A stretch of 64,000 bases of DNA from Candidatus Methylomirabilota bacterium (lineage in GTDB: Bacteria; Methylomirabilota; Methylomirabilia; Rokubacteriales; CSP1-6). The stretch spans positions 124,001 to 188,000 of the forward strand of contig DASTFB010000087.1 in NCBI GenBank assembly GCA_035709005.1, in the 5' to 3' direction. The position numbers were made by a program, and so were the translations under genes. The notes under the pieces are model-generated. The model was not told where the DNA came from. It did no database searches and was given only the letters and a program-made list of their open reading frames with translations. Below are positions 43,307-54,279 of the stretch, piece after piece (positions within the stretch are counted from its first letter, which is position 1; each line of letters starts with the position of its first letter).

Positions 43307-43679
43307 GGTGGTCCTCCCGCCGGCGCCAGTCGTGAGCGGCGGCCTGCAGCGCCTGCGCCACCACGTCGGCCGCGTGCCGGCGATCCTCAGGCAGGCCGTC
43401 CAGCGCCTGCTCGATCTCCTGGGCCTTGACGTGCAGCAGATCCTCGACCGCGCGCCCGGCCATCCGCTCGCTGGCCACGCTGGCCGCGGCGATGGTGGGG
43501 CCGCAACCGTAGGCCTGGAAGCGCAACTCGGTGGCCCGGCCGGCCCGCACCCGGAGGAAGAACCGCGCGAGGTCGCCGCACCCCGCGTACTCGCCCTCGC
43601 CCACCGCGTCGGGCTGACGCATAAGCCCGGCGTTGCGTGGGTTCAGAAAGTGATCGATCACCGTCGCACTGTACCTCAT
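43299..43679 (-). CDS. IscU/NifU-like scaffold protein lacking the third cluster cysteine
   Basis: This IscU-fold protein has 126 residues. Cys34 and Asp36 (AGCGD) and Cys59 ([11 protein letters not shown]) are conserved. At the place of the third cluster cysteine (HCS in IscU) it has His102-Ala103 in [12 protein letters not shown]; the codons read CAC GCG. It also lacks the LPPVK chaperone-binding motif. So it cannot hold a cluster exactly as IscU does. It may be a partner or regulator of the desulfurase next door. The ATG overlaps the iscS stop (ATGA). Compare the complete IscU at 49439-49840. Confidence 0.85.
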
Positions 43680-44833
43680 ACCGTCCCCGTGGGCCTGACC
43701 CGCCGGAGCTTGCCCACGACGCTGTCGATGCACTCGATCACGAAGTCGACATCCTCGGCCGTGGTCGCCGAGCCCAGCGAGAACCGCACGGCTCCCATCG
43801 CCCAGGGCCGCGGCAGGCCCAGCGCGGTCAGCACATGGGACGGCTCCACATGGCCCGACATGCACGCCGAGCCGGCCGACACGGCGACGCCCTTGAGGTC
43901 GAGACCGAGGACGATGGACTCCGACTCCACTTGGCGGAAGGCGAGATTCACCGTGCCCGGCAGCCGCTCGACGGCGTGCCCGCTGAGGCGGACGTCATCG
44001 ACGCGGGCCCGGACGCCATCGCCGAGCCGGTCGCGCAGGGGCCGCAGCCGCTCGGCCTCCACCTGCATCGTCCGAGCCCGGATCTCCACGGCTCTGCCGA
44101 AGCCCACGATGGCCGGCACGTTCTCCGTACCGGCCCGGCGCCGCCGCTCGTGCTCGCCGCCATGCTGGATCGCCACCATGCGCATCCCGCGGCGAATGTA
44201 GAGGGCCCCCACTCCCTTGGGGCCGTAGATCTTGTGCGAGGAGACCGACATCACGTCGATGCCCGCTTCGTCCGGGTCCACGGGAATCTTCCCGAAGGTC
44301 TGGACGGCGTCGACGTGGACGGCGACGCCGCGCTCACGGGCGATCGCGCCGATGGCCGCGATCGGCTGCACGGTGCCGATCTCGCTGTTGGCGTGCATGA
44401 CGCTGATGGCGACGGTGTCGGGCCGGATCGCCCGTTTGACGTCGTCGGGATCGACCAGGCCATTCTGGTCCACCGGCAGGTACGTCACGGCGAATCCGTC
44501 GGCCTCCAGGGCCTGGCAGGTGCGCAGCACCGCGTGGTGCTCGATCTGCGTGGTGATGAGATGGCCCCGGGGACCGGCCAGGGCCAGGCCCTTGATGCCC
44601 AGGTTGTCCGACTCCGTACCGCCCGACGTGAAGACGATCTCCTCGGGCGTCGCGCCCAGAAAGCCCGCGATCCGCTCTCGGGCCCCGTCGACGGCGTCCC
44701 GGGCCTCACGACCGAAGGCGTGGACGCTGGAGGGGTTGCCGAAGCGCTCGGTGAAATACGGCAGCATCGCGGCCACGACGTCCGGGTGGACCGGGGTCGA
44801 CGCGTTGTGGTCGAGGTACACGCGGCGGCTCAT
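43676..44833 (-). CDS. iscS: Cysteine desulfurase with intact active site
   Basis: This is a class I cysteine desulfurase of 385 residues. The catalytic residues are all present: His99 in QIEHHAV, PLP lysine Lys201 in SSHKIYGPKG, and the persulfide cysteine Cys324 in AGSACMSG. YLDHNASTP near the N-terminus is typical. The ATG at 44833 has a GGAG ribosome-binding site and gives a compact N-terminus; an upstream in-frame start adds 16 odd residues. It leads an operon with an IscU-like gene, cysE and an HTH gene, divergent from dsrEFH-like genes. Confidence 0.93.
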   Translation of the reverse strand: MSRRVYLDHNASTPVHPDVVAAMLPYFTERFGNPSSVHAFGREARDAVDGARERIAGFLGATPEEIVFTSGGTESDNLGIKGLALAGPRGHLITTQIEHHAVLRTCQALEADGFAVTYLPVDQNGLVDPDDVKRAIRPDTVAISVMHANSEIGTVQPIAAIGAIARERGVAVHVDAVQTFGKIPVDPDEAGIDVMSVSSHKIYGPKGVGALYIRRGMRMVAIQHGGEHERRRRAGTENVPAIVGFGRAVEIRARTMQVEAERLRPLRDRLGDGVRARVDDVRLSGHAVERLPGTVNLAFRQVESESIVLGLDLKGVAVSAGSACMSGHVEPSHVLTALGLPRPWAMGAVRFSLGSATTAEDVDFVIECIDSVVGKLRRVRPTGTV

Positions 44834-44836
44834 CGG

Positions 44837-44865
44837 TTGCTCCGGTCCCTGCCGGGTGCTAGGCT
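44837..44865 (+). promoter_or_regulatory. Candidate promoter for the dsrEFH-like trio
   Basis: In the 41-base gap between the divergent iscS and dsrE-like genes, TTGCTC (44837-44842) and TAGGCT (44860-44865) are spaced 17 bases on the plus strand. Each matches only three consensus positions. The start codon at 44875 has no Shine-Dalgarno and lies 9 bases after the -10, so a nearly leaderless mRNA is possible. Confidence 0.3.
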
Positions 44866-44874
44866 CGCGCGGCG

Positions 44875-45198
44875 ATGGCACCGGCCCGGAGGAAGCTCGG
44901 CCTGCTGCTCTCGACCGGCCCCGAACACCCCAACGTGGAGACGGCGCTCGGGCTCGCCGCCGCCGCGCTGGACAACGGCACCGACCTCTACATGTACCTC
45001 ATCGACGACGGCGTTCGCGTGGTGAGCGACGTCCGGATCCGCGCCCTGCCGGCGCGGGGAGCCAAGCTCTTCGTGTGCGCCTATGGCTGCCAGAAACGTC
45101 GCATCGCCCTCCAGGAATCTTCGGACCTGACCTACTGTGGCCTGGTCGTCCTGACCGACATCATCAACGCGACCGATCGATTCATCGCGCTGAACTGA
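44875..45198 (+). CDS. DsrE/TusD-like sulfur-carrier protein
   Basis: This 107-residue protein has the DsrE fold pattern: KLGLLLSTGPEHPNVETALGLAAAALDNG then LYMYLIDDGVR. Cysteines lie in LFVCAYGCQKRR and LTYCGLVVL; one of the first pair sits where the persulfide-carrying cysteine of DsrE/TusD is expected. It is the first gene of a trio with DsrF-like and DsrH-like genes, the order of DsrEFH and TusDCB, which pass sulfane sulfur between proteins. Confidence 0.75.
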   Translation: MAPARRKLGLLLSTGPEHPNVETALGLAAAALDNGTDLYMYLIDDGVRVVSDVRIRALPARGAKLFVCAYGCQKRRIALQESSDLTYCGLVVLTDIINATDRFIALN

Positions 45199-45205
45199 CC
45201 CCGCC

Positions 45206-45562
45206 GTGGCCGGCTCCCACCCCGTCGTCGTCGTGATCTCTGCCGACCCGCGCGTCAGCCACCGGGCCTTCGAGGCGATGCGCATCGGCACCGGTATCGT
45301 GGCCGGCGAGAACCAGGTCGCCTTCGTGCTCACCGGCTCAGGCGTGCATCTCCTGGACGAGGACACCGAGGCCCTGGTGGACGGCGATGAGATCGCCAGG
45401 TTCCGCGCCACCCTCCGGGACCTGGGCGTGACGTTCCAGGTGGAGGCGACGGCGGTGCCCACCGATCCCACCTGGAACGCGGACAAACATCCCATCGTCC
45501 CGGTCAGCCGAGACCGCATCGCGGCCCTCCTGCGGGGCGCCGGCCGAACCCTGGTCTTCTGA
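45206..45562 (+). CDS. DsrF/TusC-like protein
   Basis: This 118-residue protein resembles the DsrF/TusC subunit: VVVVISADPRVSHRAFEAMRIGTGIVAG and FVLTGSGVHLLDEDTEALVDGDEI. It has no cysteine, in keeping with the structural rather than carrier role of TusC. The start is GTG at 45206, seven bases after the DsrE-like gene. It overlaps the next gene by one base (TGATG). Confidence 0.72.
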   Translation: MAGSHPVVVVISADPRVSHRAFEAMRIGTGIVAGENQVAFVLTGSGVHLLDEDTEALVDGDEIARFRATLRDLGVTFQVEATAVPTDPTWNADKHPIVPVSRDRIAALLRGAGRTLVF

Positions 45563-45786
45563 TGGCAGCGATGCTCCATCTGGTGAAAGGCGACCACACC
45601 GAGATGCTCCTCACCACCATCGGCCAACAACTCGCAGCGCATGAGGCGGTGACGGTGGCGCTGCTGCACGGCGCCCTGCCGCCGGCCCTGCCCCCGGCCG
45701 TGCGGGTCCTCCGGGTCCCGGACGACCTCTCCTACGCCGGCCTGCTGGACCTGATCTTCGCCTCCGACCACGTCGTCACATGGTAG
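45562..45786 (+). CDS. DsrH/TusB-like protein
   Basis: This small protein of 74 residues has the TusB pattern MLHLVKGDHTEMLLTTIGQQLAAHEAVTVALLHGA and ends in LLDLIFASDHVVTW, the typical terminal tryptophan. DsrH usually keeps a cysteine near its end, but none is present here. An internal ATG at 45571 would give MLHLV directly. A 28-base-arm inverted repeat begins a few bases after its stop. Confidence 0.7.
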   Translation: MAAMLHLVKGDHTEMLLTTIGQQLAAHEAVTVALLHGALPPALPPAVRVLRVPDDLSYAGLLDLIFASDHVVTW

Positions 45787-45791
45787 ATCGG

Positions 45792-45949
45792 ACCGAGAGT
45801 GGCGTCGGCCGGGGGTGGTGGATGCTGTGAGACCCGTTTCCCTGGCGTGTTCAGCCCTCGCGGGTCGATGGCCAAGCGCGAGGCATCGGTCGGCACCGAC
45901 CTCGTGGTCGAACAGCCTCCACCACCCCCGGCCGACGCCGCTCATCGGT
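45792..45949. repeat. Long imperfect inverted repeat between convergent dsrH-like and iscX genes
   Basis: Bases 45801-45822 are perfectly complementary to 45918-45939 (22 bp). After one mismatch (45823/45917) five more pairs follow (45824-45828 with 45912-45916). With a G-U pair and one bulge the stem extends outward to 45792/45949. The 83-base interior contains a 7-bp hairpin CCTCGCG/CGCGAGG (45856-45862, 45877-45883), the palindrome around GGTCGG-CA-CCGACC (45888-45901), and a competing helix GACCCG/CGGGTC (45831-45836, 45861-45866). There is no T-tract on either strand. The right arm abuts the iscX stop. Confidence 0.85.
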
Positions 45950-46154
45950 TCCGGTACTCCTCCAGCCACGCCATCTGGATCTTCTCGAGGGCGGCCTCGG
46001 TAGACACCTTGGGATCGTCGGTGAATCCGGGCAGCTCGGTCACCCAGCGGTGGAGGTCGGTGAACCGCACCGCCAGCGGATCGGTGTCGGGGAAGCGCTC
46101 GGACAAGGCGATCCCGAGCTCCTCCGCGTCCCGCCACGTCAGCTTCAGCGTCAA
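45942..46154 (-). CDS. iscX: Fe-S assembly protein IscX
   Basis: IscX is a small acidic modulator of IscS that also binds iron. The 70 residues align with the E. coli protein: LTWRDAEELGIALSERFPDTDP, VRFTDLHRWV, and PGFTDDPKVS with a C-terminal EKIQMAWLEEY. The start is a TTG at 46154 overlapping the fdx stop (TTGA). It is the last gene of the hscB-hscA-fdx-iscX group, as in proteobacteria. Confidence 0.92.
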   Translation of the reverse strand: MTLKLTWRDAEELGIALSERFPDTDPLAVRFTDLHRWVTELPGFTDDPKVSTEAALEKIQMAWLEEYRNR

Positions 46155-46474
46155 CTCGGAATCTCCACCACCACGTCTCCCTGCACCACCGCCTGGCAGC
46201 CCAGGCGCGAGTGGATCGTGAGCCCTGTCGCCGTGTCCAGGCGATCCTCCTCGTCCGCCTCCATCTCCGAGAGGTTCTTGTCGCCCTCCCTCACGATCAC
46301 GTGGCACGTCGTGCAGGCGCAGTTGCCCCCACAGTTGTGCTCGAGGCCGATGTGGTGGGCGAGGGCGACGCCCAGGAGCGACCCCGGCTTGCCGTGATCG
46401 GCCAGGGGGTACTTCGCGTCGTCGACCTCGACGGTGACGTTCAGGGGCAAGAAGGTCACGCGATGCACGGCCAT
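46151..46474 (-). CDS. fdx: ISC-type [2Fe-2S] ferredoxin
   Basis: This adrenodoxin-type ferredoxin of 107 residues supplies electrons for cluster assembly. The cluster cysteines are in HNCGGNCACTTCHV (C-x5-C-x2-C) and LGCQAVV. DEEDRLDTATG is the acidic interaction helix. The ATG shares one base with the hscA stop. Confidence 0.94.
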   Translation of the reverse strand: MAVHRVTFLPLNVTVEVDDAKYPLADHGKPGSLLGVALAHHIGLEHNCGGNCACTTCHVIVREGDKNLSEMEADEEDRLDTATGLTIHSRLGCQAVVQGDVVVEIPS

Positions 46475-48309
46475 CAGTCCGTTCCCAGGATTTCCGCCGC
46501 CCGCCGGGTTCCCAGGGCCGTCCGGAGCGCCGCATCCATCAGCGCCTGGGCCAGGCCCTCGGTCACACGATTCAGCTCGCCGGTCCGGGCGCGGATCAGA
46601 TCGCGATCGGCCGTCTCCCGCGCCCGTTCCAACGCCTCGAGGGCGGCCGTGATCCGGGCGACGTCGGTGGGCGTGGCCAGGTGCCCGCCCTGCTTGAGGG
46701 CGCGGCGGACGTGCGTCATGACGGTATCGGCCTCGTTGCAGACCTCGATCAGCATCCGGGTCTCCACGTCGGCCTCGGCGTACTGGAAGGACTCGTCCAC
46801 CATGCGTTCGACGTCGGCCTCGCTGAGCCCGTAGGTCGGCTTCACGTCGATGGCCGCCGCCTTCCCCGTCCGCAACTCCTTGGCCGTGACCCGGAGGATG
46901 CCGTCGGCATCGATGAGGAACGTCACCTCCAGCTTGGGCATCCCCGCCGGCATGGGGTCGATCCCCCGGAGCTCGAAGCGGGCGAGGGACCGACAGTCTC
47001 CGGCCAGCTCGCGCTCCCCCTGCACCACGTGCAGGTCGACGACCGTCTGCCCGTCCACCGACGTCGTGAACAGTTCGCGGGCACTGGTGGGGATGGTGGT
47101 GTTGCGGGGAATGAGGACGCTGACGATCCCCCCCAACGTCTCGATCCCCAGCGACAGGGGCGTCACGTCGAGCAGCAGCATGCTGGTGATGCCGCCGGCC
47201 AGGATATGGGCCTGCACGGCCGCGCCCAGCGCCACCACCTCGTCCGGGCTCAGCCGGCTATGCGGGGTGCGGCCGAACAGCTCCTCGACGCGACGCCGGA
47301 CCAGCGGCACGCGCGTGGAGCCGCCCACCAGCACGACCTCGTCGATCTGCGCGGGGGGCAGGCCGGCGTCGGACAGGGCCAGGCGGCAGGGCTCCAGCGT
47401 GAGCGCGACCAGCGGCTCGAGGAGCCGCTCCACCTCGGTCCGCTTGATCTCCACCCGATAGGTGAGGTCGTCGAAGGGAATGGTGAGCGTGGTCCGCTCC
47501 TCGGTCGACAGTCGCACCTTGGCGGCCTCGGCGCCGAGCCGCAGCTCCTGGATCGCTTGGGCGTCCCCGGCCACGTCGACGCCGTGACGCCGCCGGAGAT
47601 CGTCGAGCAACCAGGCCACGAGGGCCCGGTCGAAGTCGTCGCCGCCCAGGCGGGTGTTGCCATTGGTCGCCAGCACTTCGAAGATGCCGTCCTTGACGCG
47701 GAGAATGGAGATGTCGAAGGTCCCCCCGCCCAGGTCGTAGACGGCGATGACGCCGTCCGGGAGGTGGTGCAGACCGTAGGCCAGGGAGGCGGCGGTCGGC
47801 TCGTTCAGGATGCGCACCACGTCGAGGCCGGCGATCCGTCCGGCGTCCCGGGTGGCCGCGCGCTGGCTGTCGTTGAAGTAGGCGGGGACCGTGATCACGG
47901 CCTTGTGCACGGGCTCACCGAAGTGGGCCTCCGCCCGCTCCTTGAGGCTCCGCAGGATGATGGCCGACACCTCGGGAGGCGTGACCAGGCGATCGCCGAC
48001 CGCGAGCCGGACGATCCCGTCGGACGGCTGCACGGCGAACGGAAAGTATCCGAGCTCGTCCTTGACATCGTCGTAGCCGCGCCCCATGAGGCGCTTCACC
48101 GAGTAGACGGTGGCGTCGGGGCGGCGAACCAGATACCGCCTGGCGGCGTCGCCGACCACGATGCCGGCCGGCGTGAAGGCGACGATCGACGGCAAGAGGG
48201 GCCGGCCTTCGGTATCGGCGATGACCCGGGGCAGCCCACCGCCACCGTCGTCCACGTAGGCGATCAGGCTATTGGTCGTGCCCAGGTCGATGCCGACGAT
48301 GCGCTCCAC
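46474..48309 (-). CDS. hscA: Fe-S protein chaperone HscA (Hsp70 family)
   Basis: HscA is an ATP-dependent chaperone that releases clusters from IscU. The 611-residue protein has the actin-like ATPase motifs VGIDLGTTNSLIAYV, IAVYDLGGGTFDIS and VVLVGGSTRVPLV. The substrate domain has DVTPLSLGIETLGG. NPSYGL-like KPTYGLSEADVERM is characteristic of HscA rather than DnaK, and the Gly/Met-rich DnaK tail is absent. The start is GTG at 48309, two bases after hscB. Its client motif LPPVK is present in the IscU at 49439-49840. Confidence 0.95.
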   Translation of the reverse strand: MERIVGIDLGTTNSLIAYVDDGGGGLPRVIADTEGRPLLPSIVAFTPAGIVVGDAARRYLVRRPDATVYSVKRLMGRGYDDVKDELGYFPFAVQPSDGIVRLAVGDRLVTPPEVSAIILRSLKERAEAHFGEPVHKAVITVPAYFNDSQRAATRDAGRIAGLDVVRILNEPTAASLAYGLHHLPDGVIAVYDLGGGTFDISILRVKDGIFEVLATNGNTRLGGDDFDRALVAWLLDDLRRRHGVDVAGDAQAIQELRLGAEAAKVRLSTEERTTLTIPFDDLTYRVEIKRTEVERLLEPLVALTLEPCRLALSDAGLPPAQIDEVVLVGGSTRVPLVRRRVEELFGRTPHSRLSPDEVVALGAAVQAHILAGGITSMLLLDVTPLSLGIETLGGIVSVLIPRNTTIPTSARELFTTSVDGQTVVDLHVVQGERELAGDCRSLARFELRGIDPMPAGMPKLEVTFLIDADGILRVTAKELRTGKAAAIDVKPTYGLSEADVERMVDESFQYAEADVETRMLIEVCNEADTVMTHVRRALKQGGHLATPTDVARITAALEALERARETADRDLIRARTGELNRVTEGLAQALMDAALRTALGTRRAAEILGTD

Positions 48310-48311
48310 GA

Positions 48312-48884
48312 CTAGACCGCCTCGGCTTCGCGCAGGGTCTCGCCGAGATCGTCGATGACCGTCTTGAGGTACGCGCGCACGGCCAGTCCCCGCTTGAGCT
48401 GCTCGAGCAGGGCGGGCCGTTCACCCGGAACGGCGGTGTCCCAGGCCGCGGTCAAGGGGCCGCTGAGCCGGACCTCCTCGTCCCGGCGCCGGGCGATCAG
48501 CCGTTCGCGCTGCTCGCGGAGCGCGCGGCGTGCGGCCGCGTCGAGCTGGCCGGCCCGCGCCTCGGCCAGCGCTTCCTGGATCTCGAACATCTCGCCGAGC
48601 AACTCCGGGGGCGCCGCCGGCTGCGCGGCGCCGCCATCACCGGTCTCGCGGCCGTCTTCGAGCTGCACCAGGTATTCGATGCGCGCCATGGGGTCGCGCA
48701 AGACCCGATACGCGGCGTTCAGTCGCGCCGACGTCTCCAGCACGCGGGCCTGGTCTTCGGGGGCAGCGGAGCCGTGGAAATCGGGATGGTAACGGCGTGA
48801 CAGCTCGTAGAACCGCCGCTGTAGCGCTTCGGCGTCGACCCCCAGGCGGCGGGGTAGCCCGAAGACCTGGAAGTAGTCTGTCAT
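48312..48884 (-). CDS. hscB: Fe-S co-chaperone HscB
   Basis: This is the J-domain partner of HscA, 190 residues. The J domain (DYFQVFGLPRRLGVDAEALQRRFY) has the HPD motif in RRYHPDFHG. The C-terminal three-helix IscU-binding domain contains RIEYLVQLEDG, LLGEMFEIQEALAEA and AYLKTVIDDL. The ATG at 48884 gives the normal N-terminus; an upstream ATG at 48926 would add 14 residues. About 150 bases of leader separate it from the terminator behind iscA. Confidence 0.92.
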   Translation of the reverse strand: MTDYFQVFGLPRRLGVDAEALQRRFYELSRRYHPDFHGSAAPEDQARVLETSARLNAAYRVLRDPMARIEYLVQLEDGRETGDGGAAQPAAPPELLGEMFEIQEALAEARAGQLDAAARRALREQRERLIARRRDEEVRLSGPLTAAWDTAVPGERPALLEQLKRGLAVRAYLKTVIDDLGETLREAEAV

Positions 48885-49042
48885 TGACAGGGCACGGGCA
48901 CCCGGGCCCTCACCCGCCTCGATCATTTCACCGCTCGCCTCGCGGCACGGCGCGCCTCGGCTCGCACGGCGGCCCCGCCGCGATCACCCGCGGAGCTGAT
49001 TCGCTGGTCGGTCTGAGTCGTAACCCTGCCCCCCTAAAAAAT

Positions 49043-49068
49043 GAACGGGCCCGCCGGCGGGCCCGTTC
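49043..49068 (-). terminator. Intrinsic terminator between iscA and hscB
   Basis: A perfect 26-base palindrome, with 13-bp arms GAACGGGCCCGCC/GGCGGGCCCGTTC, is followed on the minus strand by ATTTTTT. It lies 20 bases after the iscA stop and should end most rrf2-iscS-iscU-iscA transcripts before hscB. No convincing hscB promoter is visible in the following 150 bases, so hscBA-fdx-iscX expression may depend on read-through. Confidence 0.85.
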
Positions 49069-49088
49069 GACGACGCTCGCCGGGCCGC

Positions 49089-49418
49089 CTACCCCGAGAA
49101 CGACGACCCACAGCCACAGGTCGATTTCGCGTTCGGGTTCACGAACGCGAAGCCGCCGGTGAGCCCCTGCTTGACGTAGTCCAGCGTGGTCCCGTTCAAG
49201 TACAGATAGCTCTTCTTGTCGACGACGACGGTGATCCCGTCCACGACGAACTCCCGGTCGTGGGCGGTCTTCTCGGTGTCGAACTCCAGGGCATACGACA
49301 TCCCCGAGCAGCCACCGCCCCGGACCCCCATCCTGAGAAAGACCTCGTCGCCCAGGCTCTGGGCCCGCTTGAGCTCCCGCACCTGCTGCACGGCCGTTTC
49401 CGTCAGTGACACCGCCAT
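49089..49418 (-). CDS. iscA: A-type Fe-S carrier IscA
   Basis: This 109-residue carrier passes clusters to apoproteins. The three conserved cysteines are in RGGGCSGMSY and STCGCGSSF. The middle has VVDKKSYLYLNGTTLDYV. The ATG at 49418 gives MAVSLTETAVQQV. It follows iscU by 20 bases and precedes the strong terminator. Confidence 0.94.
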   Translation of the reverse strand: MAVSLTETAVQQVRELKRAQSLGDEVFLRMGVRGGGCSGMSYALEFDTEKTAHDREFVVDGITVVVDKKSYLYLNGTTLDYVKQGLTGGFAFVNPNAKSTCGCGSSFSG

Positions 49419-49438
49419 CGCACTCGACCTCCCGGTCC

Positions 49439-49840
49439 CTACGTTGCCGCCGTCACGGCGCTGTGCCTGGCCTGATAGTCGGCCAGCGCGGCCTTGATCG
49501 CGTCCTCGGCCAGCACCGAACAGTGGATCTTGACGGGCGGCAGCTTGAGCTCGTTCACGATCTCCGTGTTCCGGATCTTGGCCGCTTCGTCCAGCGTCTT
49601 GCCCTTCAACCACTCAGTGGCGAGGCTCGAGGACGCGATGGCGCTGCCGCACCCGAAGGTCTTGAACCTGGCGTCCTCGATGACACCGGTTGTGGGGTTC
49701 ACCTTGATCTGGAGCTTCATGACGTCGCCGCACTCCGGAGCCCCTACGAGCCCGGTCCCCACGTTCGGCATGTCCTTGGCGAAGGACCCGACGTTCCGCG
49801 GGTTGTTGTAGTGGTCGACGACCTTCTCGCTGTAGGCCAT
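49439..49840 (-). CDS. iscU: Fe-S cluster scaffold IscU (complete)
   Basis: This is a canonical scaffold of 133 residues. Cys37 and Asp39 (ECGD), Cys64 (FGCGSAIASSS) and Cys107 (HCSVLAED) are all present, and the HscA recognition motif LPPVK lies at residues 100-104. It is therefore competent for cluster building and for hand-off by HscA. It lies between an iscS gene that has lost its PLP lysine and iscA. Confidence 0.96.
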   Translation of the reverse strand: MAYSEKVVDHYNNPRNVGSFAKDMPNVGTGLVGAPECGDVMKLQIKVNPTTGVIEDARFKTFGCGSAIASSSLATEWLKGKTLDEAAKIRNTEIVNELKLPPVKIHCSVLAEDAIKAALADYQARHSAVTAAT

Positions 49841-49850
49841 GGCCCGCCCC

Positions 49851-51077
49851 CTAATCGGCCTTCCACTGGATGGACTTCAGATCGATCCCTTCCCTGGCCA
49901 GCTCGTAGAGCGGCGACATGTCGCGCAGCCGTTTGACGACGTCGACCGTCCGCCGCCCGACCCAGTCGATCTCCTCCTCGGTGCTGAACCGGTGGAGACT
50001 GAACCGGATCGACGAGTGGGCGAGCTCGGCGCTGGCGCCCAGGGCGGCGATCACGTACGACGGCTCCAGCGTCGCCGACGTGCACGCCGAGCCAGAGCTG
50101 AGCGCGGTCTCTTTGTTCAAGCCCATCAGCACCGATTCCCCCTCCACGTACGCGAACGAGACGTTCACGTTGTGAGGCAGCCGGCGGTCGGGGTCGCCGT
50201 TGAGGTACGCCTCGTCGACATTGGAGAGGATGAGATCTTGCAGCCGGTCACGCAACGTCCGCAGCCGCTCGCTCTCGGCCGGCATGACCTCCTGGCAGAT
50301 CTCAGCCGCTTTGCCGAACCCCACGCAGAGCGGAACCGGAAGCGTGCCGGGGCGCATCCCGCGCTCGTGGCCGCCACCGTCGAACAGTGCGGCCAGGCGA
50401 ACCCGGGGCGCCTTGCGACGGACGTAGAGCGCGCCCACCCCTTTGGGTCCGTACAGCAGATGCGCGGTACACGACAGCAGGTCGATCCCCATCGCCTCCA
50501 CGTCGATGGGGATCTTGCCGACCGCCTGGGTGGCGTCGGTGTGGAAGAGGACAGCCCGCTCCTTGGCGAGCTTCCCGATGGCCGCCACGTCCTGGATGGT
50601 GCCGATCTCGTTGTTGGCGAACATCGCCGAGATGAGAATCGTCTTGTCGGTGAGGGCTCGGGCGATGTCCGCGACGTCGACCAGCCCGTTGGGCCGCACG
50701 GGCACGTACGTCACCTGGAAGCCCTGCCGCTCCAGGCGCTTGCAGGTGTCGAGCCCGGCCCGCTGCTCGATCGCGGTGGTGACGATGTGGCTGCCCTTCT
50801 CCCGGTACATCTCGGCCACACCTTTGAGGGCGAGATTGATCGACTCCGTGCCGCCCGAGGTGAACACGACCTCCTTGGCGTCGCGGGCGCCGATCAGCCG
50901 GGCGATGCTGGCGCGGGCCGCGTCGCAGGCGGCCTCCGCTTCCCAGCCGAAGGCGTGGCTGCGGCTGGCCGGATGCCCGAACTTCTCGGTGAAGTAGGGC
51001 ATCATAGCCTCGACCACGCGCGGGTCGCAGGGGGTGGTCGACTGGGCGTCCAGAAAGATGGGGAACTTCAGGGCCAT
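49851..51077 (-). CDS. iscS: IscS homologue lacking the PLP lysine (probable pseudo-desulfurase)
   Basis: The 408-residue protein aligns end to end with E. coli IscS, including the C-terminal DLKSIQW segment. Two catalytic residues are changed. The PLP Schiff-base lysine of SGHKIYGPKG is Leu207 here (CTAHLLYGPKG, codons CAT CTG CTG TAC), and the active-site His of TEHKAV is Gln105 (AIEQRAG). RSGT is also RPGT. The persulfide cysteine Cys332 (SSGSACTSA), Asp181 and Gln184 remain. It should fold and bind IscU but cannot work by the normal PLP mechanism. The Archaeoglobus fulgidus IscS, with Asp for this Lys, is a known parallel. The ATG at 51077 is preferred; an upstream start exists at 51113. 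Confidence 0.92.
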   Translation of the reverse strand: MALKFPIFLDAQSTTPCDPRVVEAMMPYFTEKFGHPASRSHAFGWEAEAACDAARASIARLIGARDAKEVVFTSGGTESINLALKGVAEMYREKGSHIVTTAIEQRAGLDTCKRLERQGFQVTYVPVRPNGLVDVADIARALTDKTILISAMFANNEIGTIQDVAAIGKLAKERAVLFHTDATQAVGKIPIDVEAMGIDLLSCTAHLLYGPKGVGALYVRRKAPRVRLAALFDGGGHERGMRPGTLPVPLCVGFGKAAEICQEVMPAESERLRTLRDRLQDLILSNVDEAYLNGDPDRRLPHNVNVSFAYVEGESVLMGLNKETALSSGSACTSATLEPSYVIAALGASAELAHSSIRFSLHRFSTEEEIDWVGRRTVDVVKRLRDMSPLYELAREGIDLKSIQWKAD

Positions 51078-51096
51078 GGATCCGATCCCCGTGCCG

Positions 51097-51528
51097 TCAT
51101 CCCTTGATGGCAAGCAGCGTTGGCACGTCCTCGCCGACCAGCTCGGCCAGGCTCATGGTATCCAGCAGCTGGGTGATGGCCGCCTGGATCTTCTGGACCG
51201 GGCGCCGCAGGTTGCAGCGCTCCATCTGCGGGCAATCGGCGTCCTCCAGGCAGCTGACGATGTTGATCGGGCCTTCCAGCGCCCTGACCACCTGCCCGAT
51301 CGTGACCTCGCTCGGCCGGCGCGCCAGAACGTAGCCGCCCTTGGGACCGTTCTGGCTGACGATCAACCGCTCACGCGCCAGCCGCTGGAGAATCTTGGCC
51401 AGCAGCTCCGGCGGGATCCCGAACTCCTCGGCGATACGCTTGGCGCTGACCGCGCCGCCGTCCTCGTGGACAGCGATGTAGTGGATCGCCATCAGGCCGT
51501 AGTCGGCGCGCTTGGTGAACCGAAGCAT
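51097..51528 (-). CDS. iscR: Rrf2/IscR-family Fe-S-sensing transcriptional regulator
   Basis: This 143-residue winged-helix regulator starts with MLRFTKRADYGLMAIHYIAVHE. The cluster-binding cysteines are CLEDADCPQMERC (C-x5-C-x5-C) as in IscR, but the His ligand that follows in E. coli is replaced by Arg (CNLRR). It leads the isc operon and is likely to repress it when clusters are plentiful. A perfect inverted repeat lies over its promoter. IscR is chosen over NsrR or CymR from context and cysteine spacing. Confidence 0.9.
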   Translation of the reverse strand: MLRFTKRADYGLMAIHYIAVHEDGGAVSAKRIAEEFGIPPELLAKILQRLARERLIVSQNGPKGGYVLARRPSEVTIGQVVRALEGPINIVSCLEDADCPQMERCNLRRPVQKIQAAITQLLDTMSLAELVGEDVPTLLAIKG

Positions 51529-51551: not shown

Positions 51552-51580
51552 AGTTTGACACCAGACACAGGAGGTGTCAA
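51552..51580 (-). promoter_or_regulatory. isc operon promoter overlapped by a perfect inverted repeat (putative Rrf2 operator)
   Basis: On the minus strand a consensus TTGACA (51580-51575) is followed after 17 bases by a weak CAAACT -10 (51557-51552). The inverted repeat TTGACACC-10 bases-GGTGTCAA (51555-51580) spans from the -35 to the -10, so a dimer bound there would block polymerase. The repeat is a good candidate for the IscR/Rrf2 binding site of this operon. Confidence 0.65.
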
Positions 51581-51597
51581 GCAAAACCTCGTCGAAC

Positions 51598-52581
51598 TTA
51601 GCCTTCCCAGGCCTCCCTGAGCTCGGCCGCGGTCGCCTCCGGGGGCTTCTCGTTCACGAAGATGCCACCGACCCGGTTCGTCCGCTCAGGATTGGCGACG
51701 ACCTCGATGTGCCAGTGGTAGTCGTCCCGGATGGTGGCCCAATCGCCCTGCAGGATCCGGGACTTCAGATTCGGGGCGTTGTGCAGGACCATCTCGTACC
51801 CGGGGTCGCCGAAACTCTTGGCCAGTGTCCGGAAGTACTGGGACAGCAGGAGGGCCAGATCACCGGCCGTCTGCGGTGTAACGGCCTCCTCGTACGTGCA
51901 GGCGTGCCGCCGTGGGAGGATCCAGGTCTCCAGCGAGGCCCGGGCGGCGTATGGAACCAGAACGACGAAAGCTGGCGTCATTTTGATCACCCGCTCCTCG
52001 GCGGCGATCTCCTGACGCACCATGTCGCAGTAGAGGCAGCGGCGCTTGTACTGGTAGTATTCGCGGGCCTCTCGCAGCTCGCGCCGGGTCTCGTCGAAGA
52101 CGATCGGAATAGCGGTCACCCGGGAGTAGGGATGATGCGGCGGGACACCGACCTTCTTGTGGTGTCGCAGCACCAGGATGTCGCGGATCTGGCTATCCCG
52201 CTTGAGATCGAGGATCCGGTCGCGGTACATCCACAGGACCGCCTCGATCTGGCTCGGGTCCATCGTGGCCAGGGTGTCGTCGTGACGGGGGGACTCCAGA
52301 ATGAGCTCGCCCGCGCCCCGGGGCGTGATCATGTCGAACATGCCGACACCCTCGCGGATGAGCTCTCGCTCGATACGGAAGTAGGGATCGGCGGCGGGCA
52401 CGACCCTCACCGTCCAGCCGGGCCCGCCCGGGGGGGCGCCATTGTCGCGGTAGGCGGCGATCTCCGTCGTCGGGCCTTCGTTGCCCGGACAGTAGGGACA
52501 CTCTCCGTCTGCTTCGAGCCGCGGCTTGGGCCTGACCAGCACCCAGCGCCCGCGTGTCGGATCCTTTCTCAGCTCGTCCAC
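51598..52581 (-). CDS. GalT-like nucleotidyltransferase with altered active-site motif
   Basis: This 327-residue protein has the galactose-1-phosphate uridylyltransferase fold: zinc-type ECPYCPGNEGP at residues 27-37, a second CLYC pair near 182, and the C-terminal DDYHWHIEVVA. The family active site HPH(S/G)Q reads HHPYSR at residues 149-154, so the nucleophilic second His is Tyr152. Normal uridylyl transfer is therefore doubtful; a related phosphorylase or transferase activity on another sugar phosphate is possible. The start is GTG at 52581 with GGGAGGA upstream. It is divergent from the selenoprotein gene. Confidence 0.8.
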   Translation of the reverse strand: MDELRKDPTRGRWVLVRPKPRLEADGECPYCPGNEGPTTEIAAYRDNGAPPGGPGWTVRVVPAADPYFRIERELIREGVGMFDMITPRGAGELILESPRHDDTLATMDPSQIEAVLWMYRDRILDLKRDSQIRDILVLRHHKKVGVPPHHPYSRVTAIPIVFDETRRELREAREYYQYKRRCLYCDMVRQEIAAEERVIKMTPAFVVLVPYAARASLETWILPRRHACTYEEAVTPQTAGDLALLLSQYFRTLAKSFGDPGYEMVLHNAPNLKSRILQGDWATIRDDYHWHIEVVANPERTNRVGGIFVNEKPPEATAAELREAWEG

Positions 52582-52694
52582 GTGTCCTCCCGCATGCCAA
52601 CCGGCTGCCGAACCGACGCCCCGGATCCTGGCATCCTAAGATACGATCATACGGAGGCTGCCCAGCCCGACGCCACAAATCGGAGGAGCAGACT

Positions 52695-52934
52695 ATGGCC
52701 CGTGATGTCGTTGTGTACTCCAGCCCCACCTGAGGCCCCTGCCGCGCGGCGAAAGAGTTTCTTTCGTCTCAGGGTGTCCCGTATCGGGACGTGAACGTCG
52801 TCGAGAGCGCCGAAGCCAGGGAAGAACTGGCCCGCCTCACCGGACGGATGTCCATCCCCGTCATCGTGGTCGACGGTCAGGTCGTCGTCGGCTTCGACAA
52901 GACCCGACTGGAGCGGCTACTGGCTAGTCCTTGA
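52695..52934 (+). CDS. Selenocysteine-containing glutaredoxin-like protein (in-frame TGA = Sec)
   Basis: The frame is MARDVVVYSSPT-U-GPCRAAKEF and continues with LTGRMSIPVIVVDGQVVVGF to a final TGA at 52932, 79 residues in all. The TGA at 52731-52733 (codon 13) falls exactly on the first cysteine of the CxxC active site, giving UGPC with Cys16 as resolving residue. IPV is the cis-proline motif of the thioredoxin fold. The ATG has a strong GGAGGAG ribosome-binding site seven bases away. A hairpin suited to a bacterial SECIS follows. Without recoding, the product would be a 12-residue peptide. It overlaps the convergent TPR gene by 11 bases. Confidence 0.85.
52737..52774 (+). promoter_or_regulatory. 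Candidate bacterial SECIS element
   Basis: Starting 4 bases after the TGA, CCCTG (52737-52741) pairs with CAGGG (52770-52774). An inner stem CGAAAG/CTTTCG (52750-52755, 52761-52766), extendable by two pairs, closes a five-base loop AGTTT. The G at the second loop position lies 24 bases after the TGA, within the 16-37-base window of the general bacterial SECIS model. The bulged U of the E. coli fdhF element is not obvious. Confidence 0.6.
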
Positions 52935-54279
52935 GCTGGCTCTTCAGCTTGCGAAGGTGCTGACGAGCGACATCGACCCAGTCCTTCTGGGCGGGGATCT
53001 GTGAGGCCAATGCGATGTAGCGCTCCCACTGGGCGATCGCTTCCCGCGGATCCACCTTCTCGTAGACGAGGGCCAGGTTGTAGAGCGCCTCCGCGTGCGC
53101 GGGCTCGGCCTCGATCACCCGCCCGTACTCCTCGATGGCCTCCTTGTACAGTCCTTTCTCCTCGTAGACCTCGCCCAGCCCCATCCGCGCCTCGACGGAC
53201 CGCGGGTCCAGCTCGATCGCGCGCTTGTAGGCGTTCACCGATTCATAGTAGAGACCCTTTTCGCTGTGATAGATCTTCCCGAGGCTCACGTGGACGCGGG
53301 GACTGACCGCGTTGAAGGTCAGGGCCCGCTGATACGCGTTGATGGCGCCGTCCACGTCCCCTTTGGCGGCGAGCGCGTCGCCCAGTCCGACATGCGCCTC
53401 GGCGTAGAACGGACGGCGCTCGATGGCCTTCTGATACGCCTCCACCGCCTGGTCGAACAGCCGCCGGGGCGCGGACAGGAGCAGATCTCCCAACGCCTTG
53501 TAGGGCTCGGGATACGTCGCGTCGAGCTGTGTGGCCGCCCGGTACTGGGCGGCCGCCTTCCAGCGGTTGCCGAGGGCTTGATGCACCCGCCCCAGCGAGT
53601 ACTGCGCCACCACGAAGTTGGGGTCGGCCTCGATGGCCCGCGCCAGAAGATCGGCCGCGCTCTCGTTGCCTTCTTGACCGCCGCGAGCGGCCGCCTGCTG
53701 GCTCCGCGAGTACAGCTCCAGCGCGCGGACCGATGTGGTGGGGCGTGTCGCCTTCTCGATGCGGGCCGTGTCGGCCTCGCTCAGCGTCACCTTCATGGTT
53801 CGGATGTAGGCAATGACGAGGGCCGGCAACCGGGTGGCCAGCTCATCGGCAGGAACAGTCAAGGGTTCCAGCCCCAGCGCGTCGCCTCCGGCGGCCTTCA
53901 CGTTGAGCAGCCGGGCGTTCACGGTGAGGTCGGAGCCGACCCGGACCACTGTTCCGAACAGGGCCATGTCGGCGCCTAGAGAGCGGGCGGCCTGGCCCAC
54001 GGCACCCTCGCCCCAGGCCTCCGGCTGCCCGAATGCCTTGAGCCGGGCCGGGTCGATCTGGACGACCCCCGCGTGCTGGGTCAGCCCCAGGCGTAGTACC
54101 TCGGCCACTCCCTGCCCCGTCCAGGACCAGTCCGGCCCGGCGGCCGCCGCGTCGAACGGAACCACGAGCACGACGTGCGTCTTGACCGCGGGGGCGGCCC
54201 CGGCCGGCTGCTGCATTACCAGGACCGTCAGCACGACAGTCAAGAGTGCGAACCGGTGCCGGAGGTCACGTACCATCAC
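52924..54279 (-). CDS. Secreted TPR-repeat protein with N-terminal FlgO/CsgG-like domain
   Basis: This 451-residue protein has a signal peptide (hydrophobic ALLTVVLTVLVMQQPAGA). Residues about 35-165 look like the alpha/beta domain of FlgO/TolB-type periplasmic proteins (VVLVVPFDAAA, SLGADMALFGTVVRVG). At least six TPR repeats follow from about residue 200, such as EAHVGLGDALAAKGDVDGAINAYQRAL. The gene overlaps the end of the VWA fusion gene, so it is the last member of the MoxR/VWA module and may scaffold it. The GTG at 54279 precedes an ATG. Confidence 0.8.
   Translation of the reverse strand: MMVRDLRHRFALLTVVLTVLVMQQPAGAAPAVKTHVVLVVPFDAAAAGPDWSWTGQGVAEVLRLGLTQHAGVVQIDPARLKAFGQPEAWGEGAVGQAARSLGADMALFGTVVRVGSDLTVNARLLNVKAAGGDALGLEPLTVPADELATRLPALVIAYIRTMKVTLSEADTARIEKATRPTTSVRALELYSRSQQAAARGGQEGNESAADLLARAIEADPNFVVAQYSLGRVHQALGNRWKAAAQYRAATQLDATYPEPYKALGDLLLSAPRRLFDQAVEAYQKAIERRPFYAEAHVGLGDALAAKGDVDGAINAYQRALTFNAVSPRVHVSLGKIYHSEKGLYYESVNAYKRAIELDPRSVEARMGLGEVYEEKGLYKEAIEEYGRVIEAEPAHAEALYNLALVYEKVDPREAIAQWERYIALASQIPAQKDWVDVARQHLRKLKSQLKD

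Follow-up and report, generated by a model that had tools for sequence, protein, structure and literature searches.

A predicted selenocysteine-containing glutaredoxin gene with a covarying SECIS hairpin in an uncultured Methylomirabilota genome

The locus and its predicted product

The window analysed here is a continuous 64-kb stretch of DNA (G000:C87:124001-188000) from a genome of 4.59 Mb that is 95% complete and assembled in 134 contigs. By sequence match, the closest named loci belong to metagenome-assembled Candidatus Rokubacteria / Rokuibacteriota, and relatives were searched in the same family, order and class. The features of the locus are listed below, in window coordinates unless a contig is given.

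51598-52581, minus strand: divergent neighbour encoding a GalT-like (GalP_UDP_tr_C) protein, conserved flank
52682-52687, plus strand: Shine-Dalgarno sequence GGAGGA, 7 nt 5' of the ATG
52695-52934, plus strand: predicted selenocysteine (Sec) glutaredoxin gene, Sec-Grx, 79 residues, UGPC active site, TGA terminator
52731-52733, plus strand: TGA codon predicted to be read as Sec, residue 13; TGA in 54 aligned loci and a Cys codon in 6 more distant homologues
52740-52742, plus strand: TGC codon of the putative resolving cysteine, residue 16; Cys invariant in 26 orthologues
52748-52768, plus strand: predicted bacterial SECIS hairpin, stem of 8-9 bp, GUU loop at 52757-52759 starting 23 nt after the TGA
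52924-54279, minus strand: convergent neighbour encoding a TPR-repeat protein, conserved flank, its end overlapping the Grx end by 11 bp
G000:C87:189561-190505, minus strand: SelD, about 1.5 kb to the right of the window end, 336 bits

The glutaredoxin frame starts at the ATG at 52695, ends at the TGA at 52932-52934 and encodes MARDVVVYSSPT-U-GPCRAAKEFLSSQGVPYRDVNVVESAEAREELARLTGRMSIPVIVVDGQVVVGFDKTRLERLLASP. Its sole internal TGA falls exactly where the CxxC motif has its first Cys. The first-pass annotation of this DNA had proposed a glutaredoxin frame that continues through a TGA at the first active-site position (UGPC) behind a strong ribosome-binding site, and both parts of this proposal were confirmed with the same coordinates. 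When U was replaced by C, the protein matched the Pfam Glutaredoxin model PF00462 over residues 5-64 with an E-value of 1.2e-20, scoring 73.9 bits against a gathering cut-off of 22.9, and GGAGG-like sites precede most of the orthologues as well. The U13/C16 redox pair and P55 of the fold are invariant among the Sec-Grx orthologues, and the C-terminus of the window protein is LLASP-stop. A single-sequence structure prediction, of low confidence (pLDDT 63.5), placed the strands and helices in the order that the fold expects, with a helix at residues 14-25 directly behind residue 13. From its sequence, Sec-Grx very probably encodes a selenoprotein with the glutaredoxin/thioredoxin fold, a new example of a family that is already known.

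It is plausible that gene callers miss this gene, since only a 12-codon frame precedes the TGA and a possible 47-codon fragment with a GTG start follows it. Reading the raw sequence can thus bring to light selenoprotein genes that would probably be shortened or lost in standard gene calling. Two other open reading frames at the locus (51574-52794 on the plus strand and 52193-52729 on the minus strand) overlap conserved genes and were rejected as chance frames of GC-rich DNA.

The gene order GalT-like, Sec-Grx and TPR, in which the Grx gene runs against both neighbours, is kept in 24 of the 26 orthologues, which makes the Sec-glutaredoxin a conserved and syntenic gene in a large uncultured phylum of soil and groundwater. 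In the loci whose flanks reach further, Isc genes are found on the far side of GalT, matching the arrangement in the window. There, an Isc-type Fe-S cluster region occupies 43676-51528 on the minus strand and contains two class-V aminotransferase (IscS-like) genes, IscU-like and HscA/HscB-like genes and an Rrf2 regulator; several relatives keep this region next to GalT and Sec-Grx.

Conservation of the internal TGA codon

We carried out a six-frame search of 60 relatives, and in most genomes the best match was broken by exactly one TGA. In every fetched locus we then read the codon aligned to residue 13, which was TGA in 54 loci and TGC or TGT in six. The 54 TGA loci come mostly from Rokubacteria/Methylomirabilota, and some of them are one species present in two collections. 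The six Cys loci are distant homologues from Dehalococcoidia, Kaiserbacteria, Verrucomicrobiota, Terrisporobacter and Patescibacteria, together with one distant paralogue in the class. In the phylum as a whole, 75 of 95 genomes had a match at 1e-9. Among the matches listed at E <= 1e-9, no Cys orthologue was found in the 95 genomes, and the TGA was missing only from three fragments whose start lies downstream of residue 13. The reason for keeping Sec in this phylum thereby becomes a testable question. The long branches of the Cys rows prevented a tree of 77 columns from showing whether the Sec or the Cys state came first.

The internal codon can also be compared with the terminators of the same genes. 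In 26 distinct orthologues the terminator varies (15 TGA, 10 TAG and 1 TAA), whereas the internal codon is invariably TGA, indicating that chance does not account for the internal TGA and that TGA is still a working stop. When we calculated pairwise dN/dS values (Nei-Gojobori) for these orthologues, the codons upstream of the TGA had a median of 0.31, those downstream of the hairpin 0.26, and all codons downstream of the TGA together 0.27, which indicates protein-level selection on either side of the codon.

Here, we need to consider that the TGA might have arisen as an error in sequencing or assembly, or might be a stop codon in a decaying pseudogene. The assembly is indeed fragmented, and one relative holds a fragment (G078:C1:124369-124497) that is 81% identical to the window protein and contains two TGA codons and one TAG; it may be a copy that has decayed or shifted frame. 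However, the identical TGA recurs in dozens of independent assemblies whose proteins are 55-80% identical, which rules out a base-call error; moreover, the dN/dS value beyond the codon is low, and the phylum-wide search described above gave no Cys version. The conservation of the TGA refutes this explanation, and we give it practically no weight.

The predicted SECIS hairpin

A hairpin downstream of the TGA had been reported in the first-pass annotation, and we located it at 52748-52768. The published bacterial SECIS model (PMC13188914) has a loop of 3-9 nt with G in the first two loop positions, a stem of 4-16 bp, 16-37 nt from the UGA to the loop and a minimum free energy of at most -7.5 kcal/mol. 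The hairpin, with an energy of -9.2 kcal/mol when folded alone, agrees with all of these published constraints. Folding of the window sequence makes it only mildly unusual, as 3.3% of its synonymous recodings fold equally well. The strong evidence for the predicted element is its conservation together with its covariation across aligned sequences, one sequence being insufficient.

First, all 26 main-group orthologues have the hairpin, compared with 15 cases of such a structure behind the 4305 ordinary codons in genes of the window. Second, standard pairs make up 99.7% of the pair cells in 41 distinct sequences, and three stem pairs show double-sided changes (CG to AU; AU to UA or CG; GC to AU). 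Cells with double-sided changes numbered 21, compared with 1.8 in shuffles, and the covariation score was 0.278 against 0.133 in shuffles (0/500), while sliding the stem partner led to loss of pairing. Such SECIS variants with compensatory changes would be useful to SECIS predictors. Third, the synonymous choice is frozen inside the hairpin, where TTT and CTT are each kept in 26 of 26 orthologues and AAA in 24 of 26. Sampled window genes, on the contrary, prefer TTC over TTT by 124:9 and AAG over AAA by 117:15, and the mean synonymous difference is 0.27 in the hairpin and 0.52 elsewhere. Finally, the Cys homologues align their Cys to the TGA and do not keep the hairpin, which upholds the earlier inference of Sec at this position.

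When the genome was searched with a SECIS covariance model, the window gene scored 66.7 bits (its sequence is in the training set), a paralogue on contig C21 scored 57.1 and the next hit 18 bits. As the model finds only these two genes, it is family-specific and unable to list the selenoproteome. No Rfam family matched the window at gathering thresholds.

Sec machinery and decoding of the UGA

The first-pass annotation had also deduced that the lineage has a Sec machinery, and had named the absence of selB or selC as evidence against the proposed selenoprotein. Both genes are present in the genome, as are selA and selD. A single tRNASec (selC) with a UCA anticodon exceeded the cut-off, at 68.9 bits. 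SelA (596 bits) is encoded on the same contig as the tRNASec, and selB (361 bits) lies at the start of another contig. In selD itself, an in-frame TGA occupies the catalytic Cys position (CAG-U-ASK) and has a hairpin behind it; SelD proteins with Sec are already known.

Among the 60 relatives, 52 have a tRNASec over threshold, and five of the eight others have selB. In the remaining three (G021, G031 and G032), neither tRNASec nor selB was found, yet the TGA gene is present. This is probably a recurrent assembly gap, since selA and selB are at contig ends in the window genome too.

We also considered whether UGA is read as Cys or Trp through a suppressor tRNA or a changed genetic code. Because the other catalytic position is Cys, an inserted Cys would also yield an active protein. 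Nevertheless, UGA is an ordinary terminator in four of eight sampled window genes, as it is in the 15 orthologues mentioned above, and the tRNASec is the only UCA tRNA among the loci scanned. The covarying hairpin, moreover, stands behind the UGA and is missing behind Cys codons. We regard a Cys or Trp reading as very improbable.

We suggest instead that the UGA at 52731-52733 is very probably decoded as Sec, judging from the sequence evidence. The gene set and the RNA element suggest that SelA and SelD make Sec-tRNASec on selC and that SelB brings it to the ribosome and binds the hairpin at 52748-52768. The UGA would then be read as Sec rather than as a stop, and translation would end at the TGA at 52932-52934. 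By homology to Grx1 of Clostridium oremlandii, Sec13 at the start of helix 1 would provide the selenolate that attacks a disulfide or other oxidised substrates, and Cys16 would act as the resolving thiol.

Comparison with known Sec-glutaredoxins

The nearest solved structures were 7c10 (4.9e-17) and 7c12/7c13 (1.3e-15), followed by other redoxins. We infer that these three entries are Grx1 of Clostridium (Alkaliphilus) oremlandii, cGrx1, since the chain sequences match the dithiol and monothiol forms, Cys13/Cys16, Asn11, Thr12 and His15 of the structure paper of 2020 (PMC7642778). According to that paper, cGrx1 is natively a selenoprotein, and Cys was put in the place of its catalytic Sec. Chain 7c10, taken here as cGrx1, shares 47% identity with the window Sec-Grx over the full length, with a single one-residue gap. 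Its native Sec13 aligns with the window TGA, and Cys16 is common to both proteins. The two proteins differ in that the solved Sec-to-Cys chain has CPHC where the window protein has UGPC, and they come from different phyla. C. oremlandii, moreover, has an MsrA partner with tandem Sec, which is absent from the window genome: our search for a Sec MsrA found a single MsrA with no in-frame stop.

According to the available text of four sources, Sec-glutaredoxin (UxxC) is a known family listed since 2005 (PMC1088965, PMC1794560, PMC9312934, PMC13188914). As in the window gene, the bacterial members catalogued there (UxxC, PF00462) have Sec first in the CxxC motif and a SECIS element just behind the UGA. 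The examples given in that text come from marine metagenomes, Geobacter, Alkaliphilus and Moorella, and Rokubacteria are not named in it for this family. A review of 2026 refers to 63 predicted selenoproteins in one Methylomirabilota genome, so the phylum is already recognised as selenoprotein-rich.

The window protein also shows sequence similarity to the UXX-star families (NF041114, NF041211 and NF041212), which are glutaredoxin-like proteins with Sec. Its scores are under their cut-offs, at 64.6 of 66, 51 of 100 and 37.1 of 72 bits, respectively, and it lacks the C-terminal U-x-x-stop, which is how we read the name UXX-star. The best NCBIfam match, with C for U, was the YruB-family model TIGR02196 (3.2e-25), where the score of 88.4 bits just missed the cut-off of 88.55. 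This model was built from Cys proteins.

Redox function and electron donor

Sec decoding is compatible with a classical glutathione-dependent glutaredoxin in which Sec merely speeds the usual reaction with GSH. The Pfam Glutaredoxin match, the dithiol UxxC motif and the invariant Pro55 are in line with such an enzyme, and cGrx1 was described with GSH as the reductant (PMC7642778). However, the protein scores just below the YruB cut-off and far below that of glutaredoxin 3, and a TIGR01380 search for a prokaryotic (gshB-type) glutathione synthetase found none in this 95%-complete genome, although several glutaredoxin-like proteins are encoded. The electron donor may thus be other than glutathione, and we consider a classical GSH-dependent enzyme possible but doubtful.

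An obligately selenium-dependent lineage can be proposed with similar reserve. The Sec form would be the only one throughout Methylomirabilota, in genomes that possibly lack glutathione, and electrons might come from another thiol or from a thioredoxin reductase. Sec-Grx would then act on a dedicated partner and not in the general exchange of disulfides. We put this forward tentatively.

Other candidate selenoproteins

Several further candidates were observed in the window genome. At G000:C41:68479-69240 (L072:1480-2241, plus strand), a glutaredoxin domain with a TGA at the first active-site position (USSC) is fused to DinB_2. The Pfam E-values are 1.7e-14 for glutaredoxin and 2.2e-11 for DinB_2, and a hairpin lies behind the TGA. 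Many relatives have weak matches with one TGA, in frames 250-390 aa long, which suggests that this fusion is conserved, and our literature search found no published description of such a fusion selenoprotein. On contig C21 (G000:C21:2500-6500, L073), a second putative Sec-glutaredoxin has the motif UQSC and a SECIS element as in the window gene, and a rhodanese on the same contig has a TGA at the catalytic Cys position (CHDYQ-U-DMSAR).

Candidates were also seen in relatives. In Methylomirabilaceae-like genomes and a related family (L074, L075 and L076), a short glutaredoxin-like protein resembling UXX-star family 1 has two TGA codons, one at UPYT and the other shortly before its end (e.g. GGT-U-AV-stop). 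Five further loci (L078, L079, L089, L090 and L091) form a separate Sec-Grx clade with UGPC or UTGC motifs and approximately 35-39% identity to the window protein, and their covarying SECIS has the loop GUA in place of GUU.
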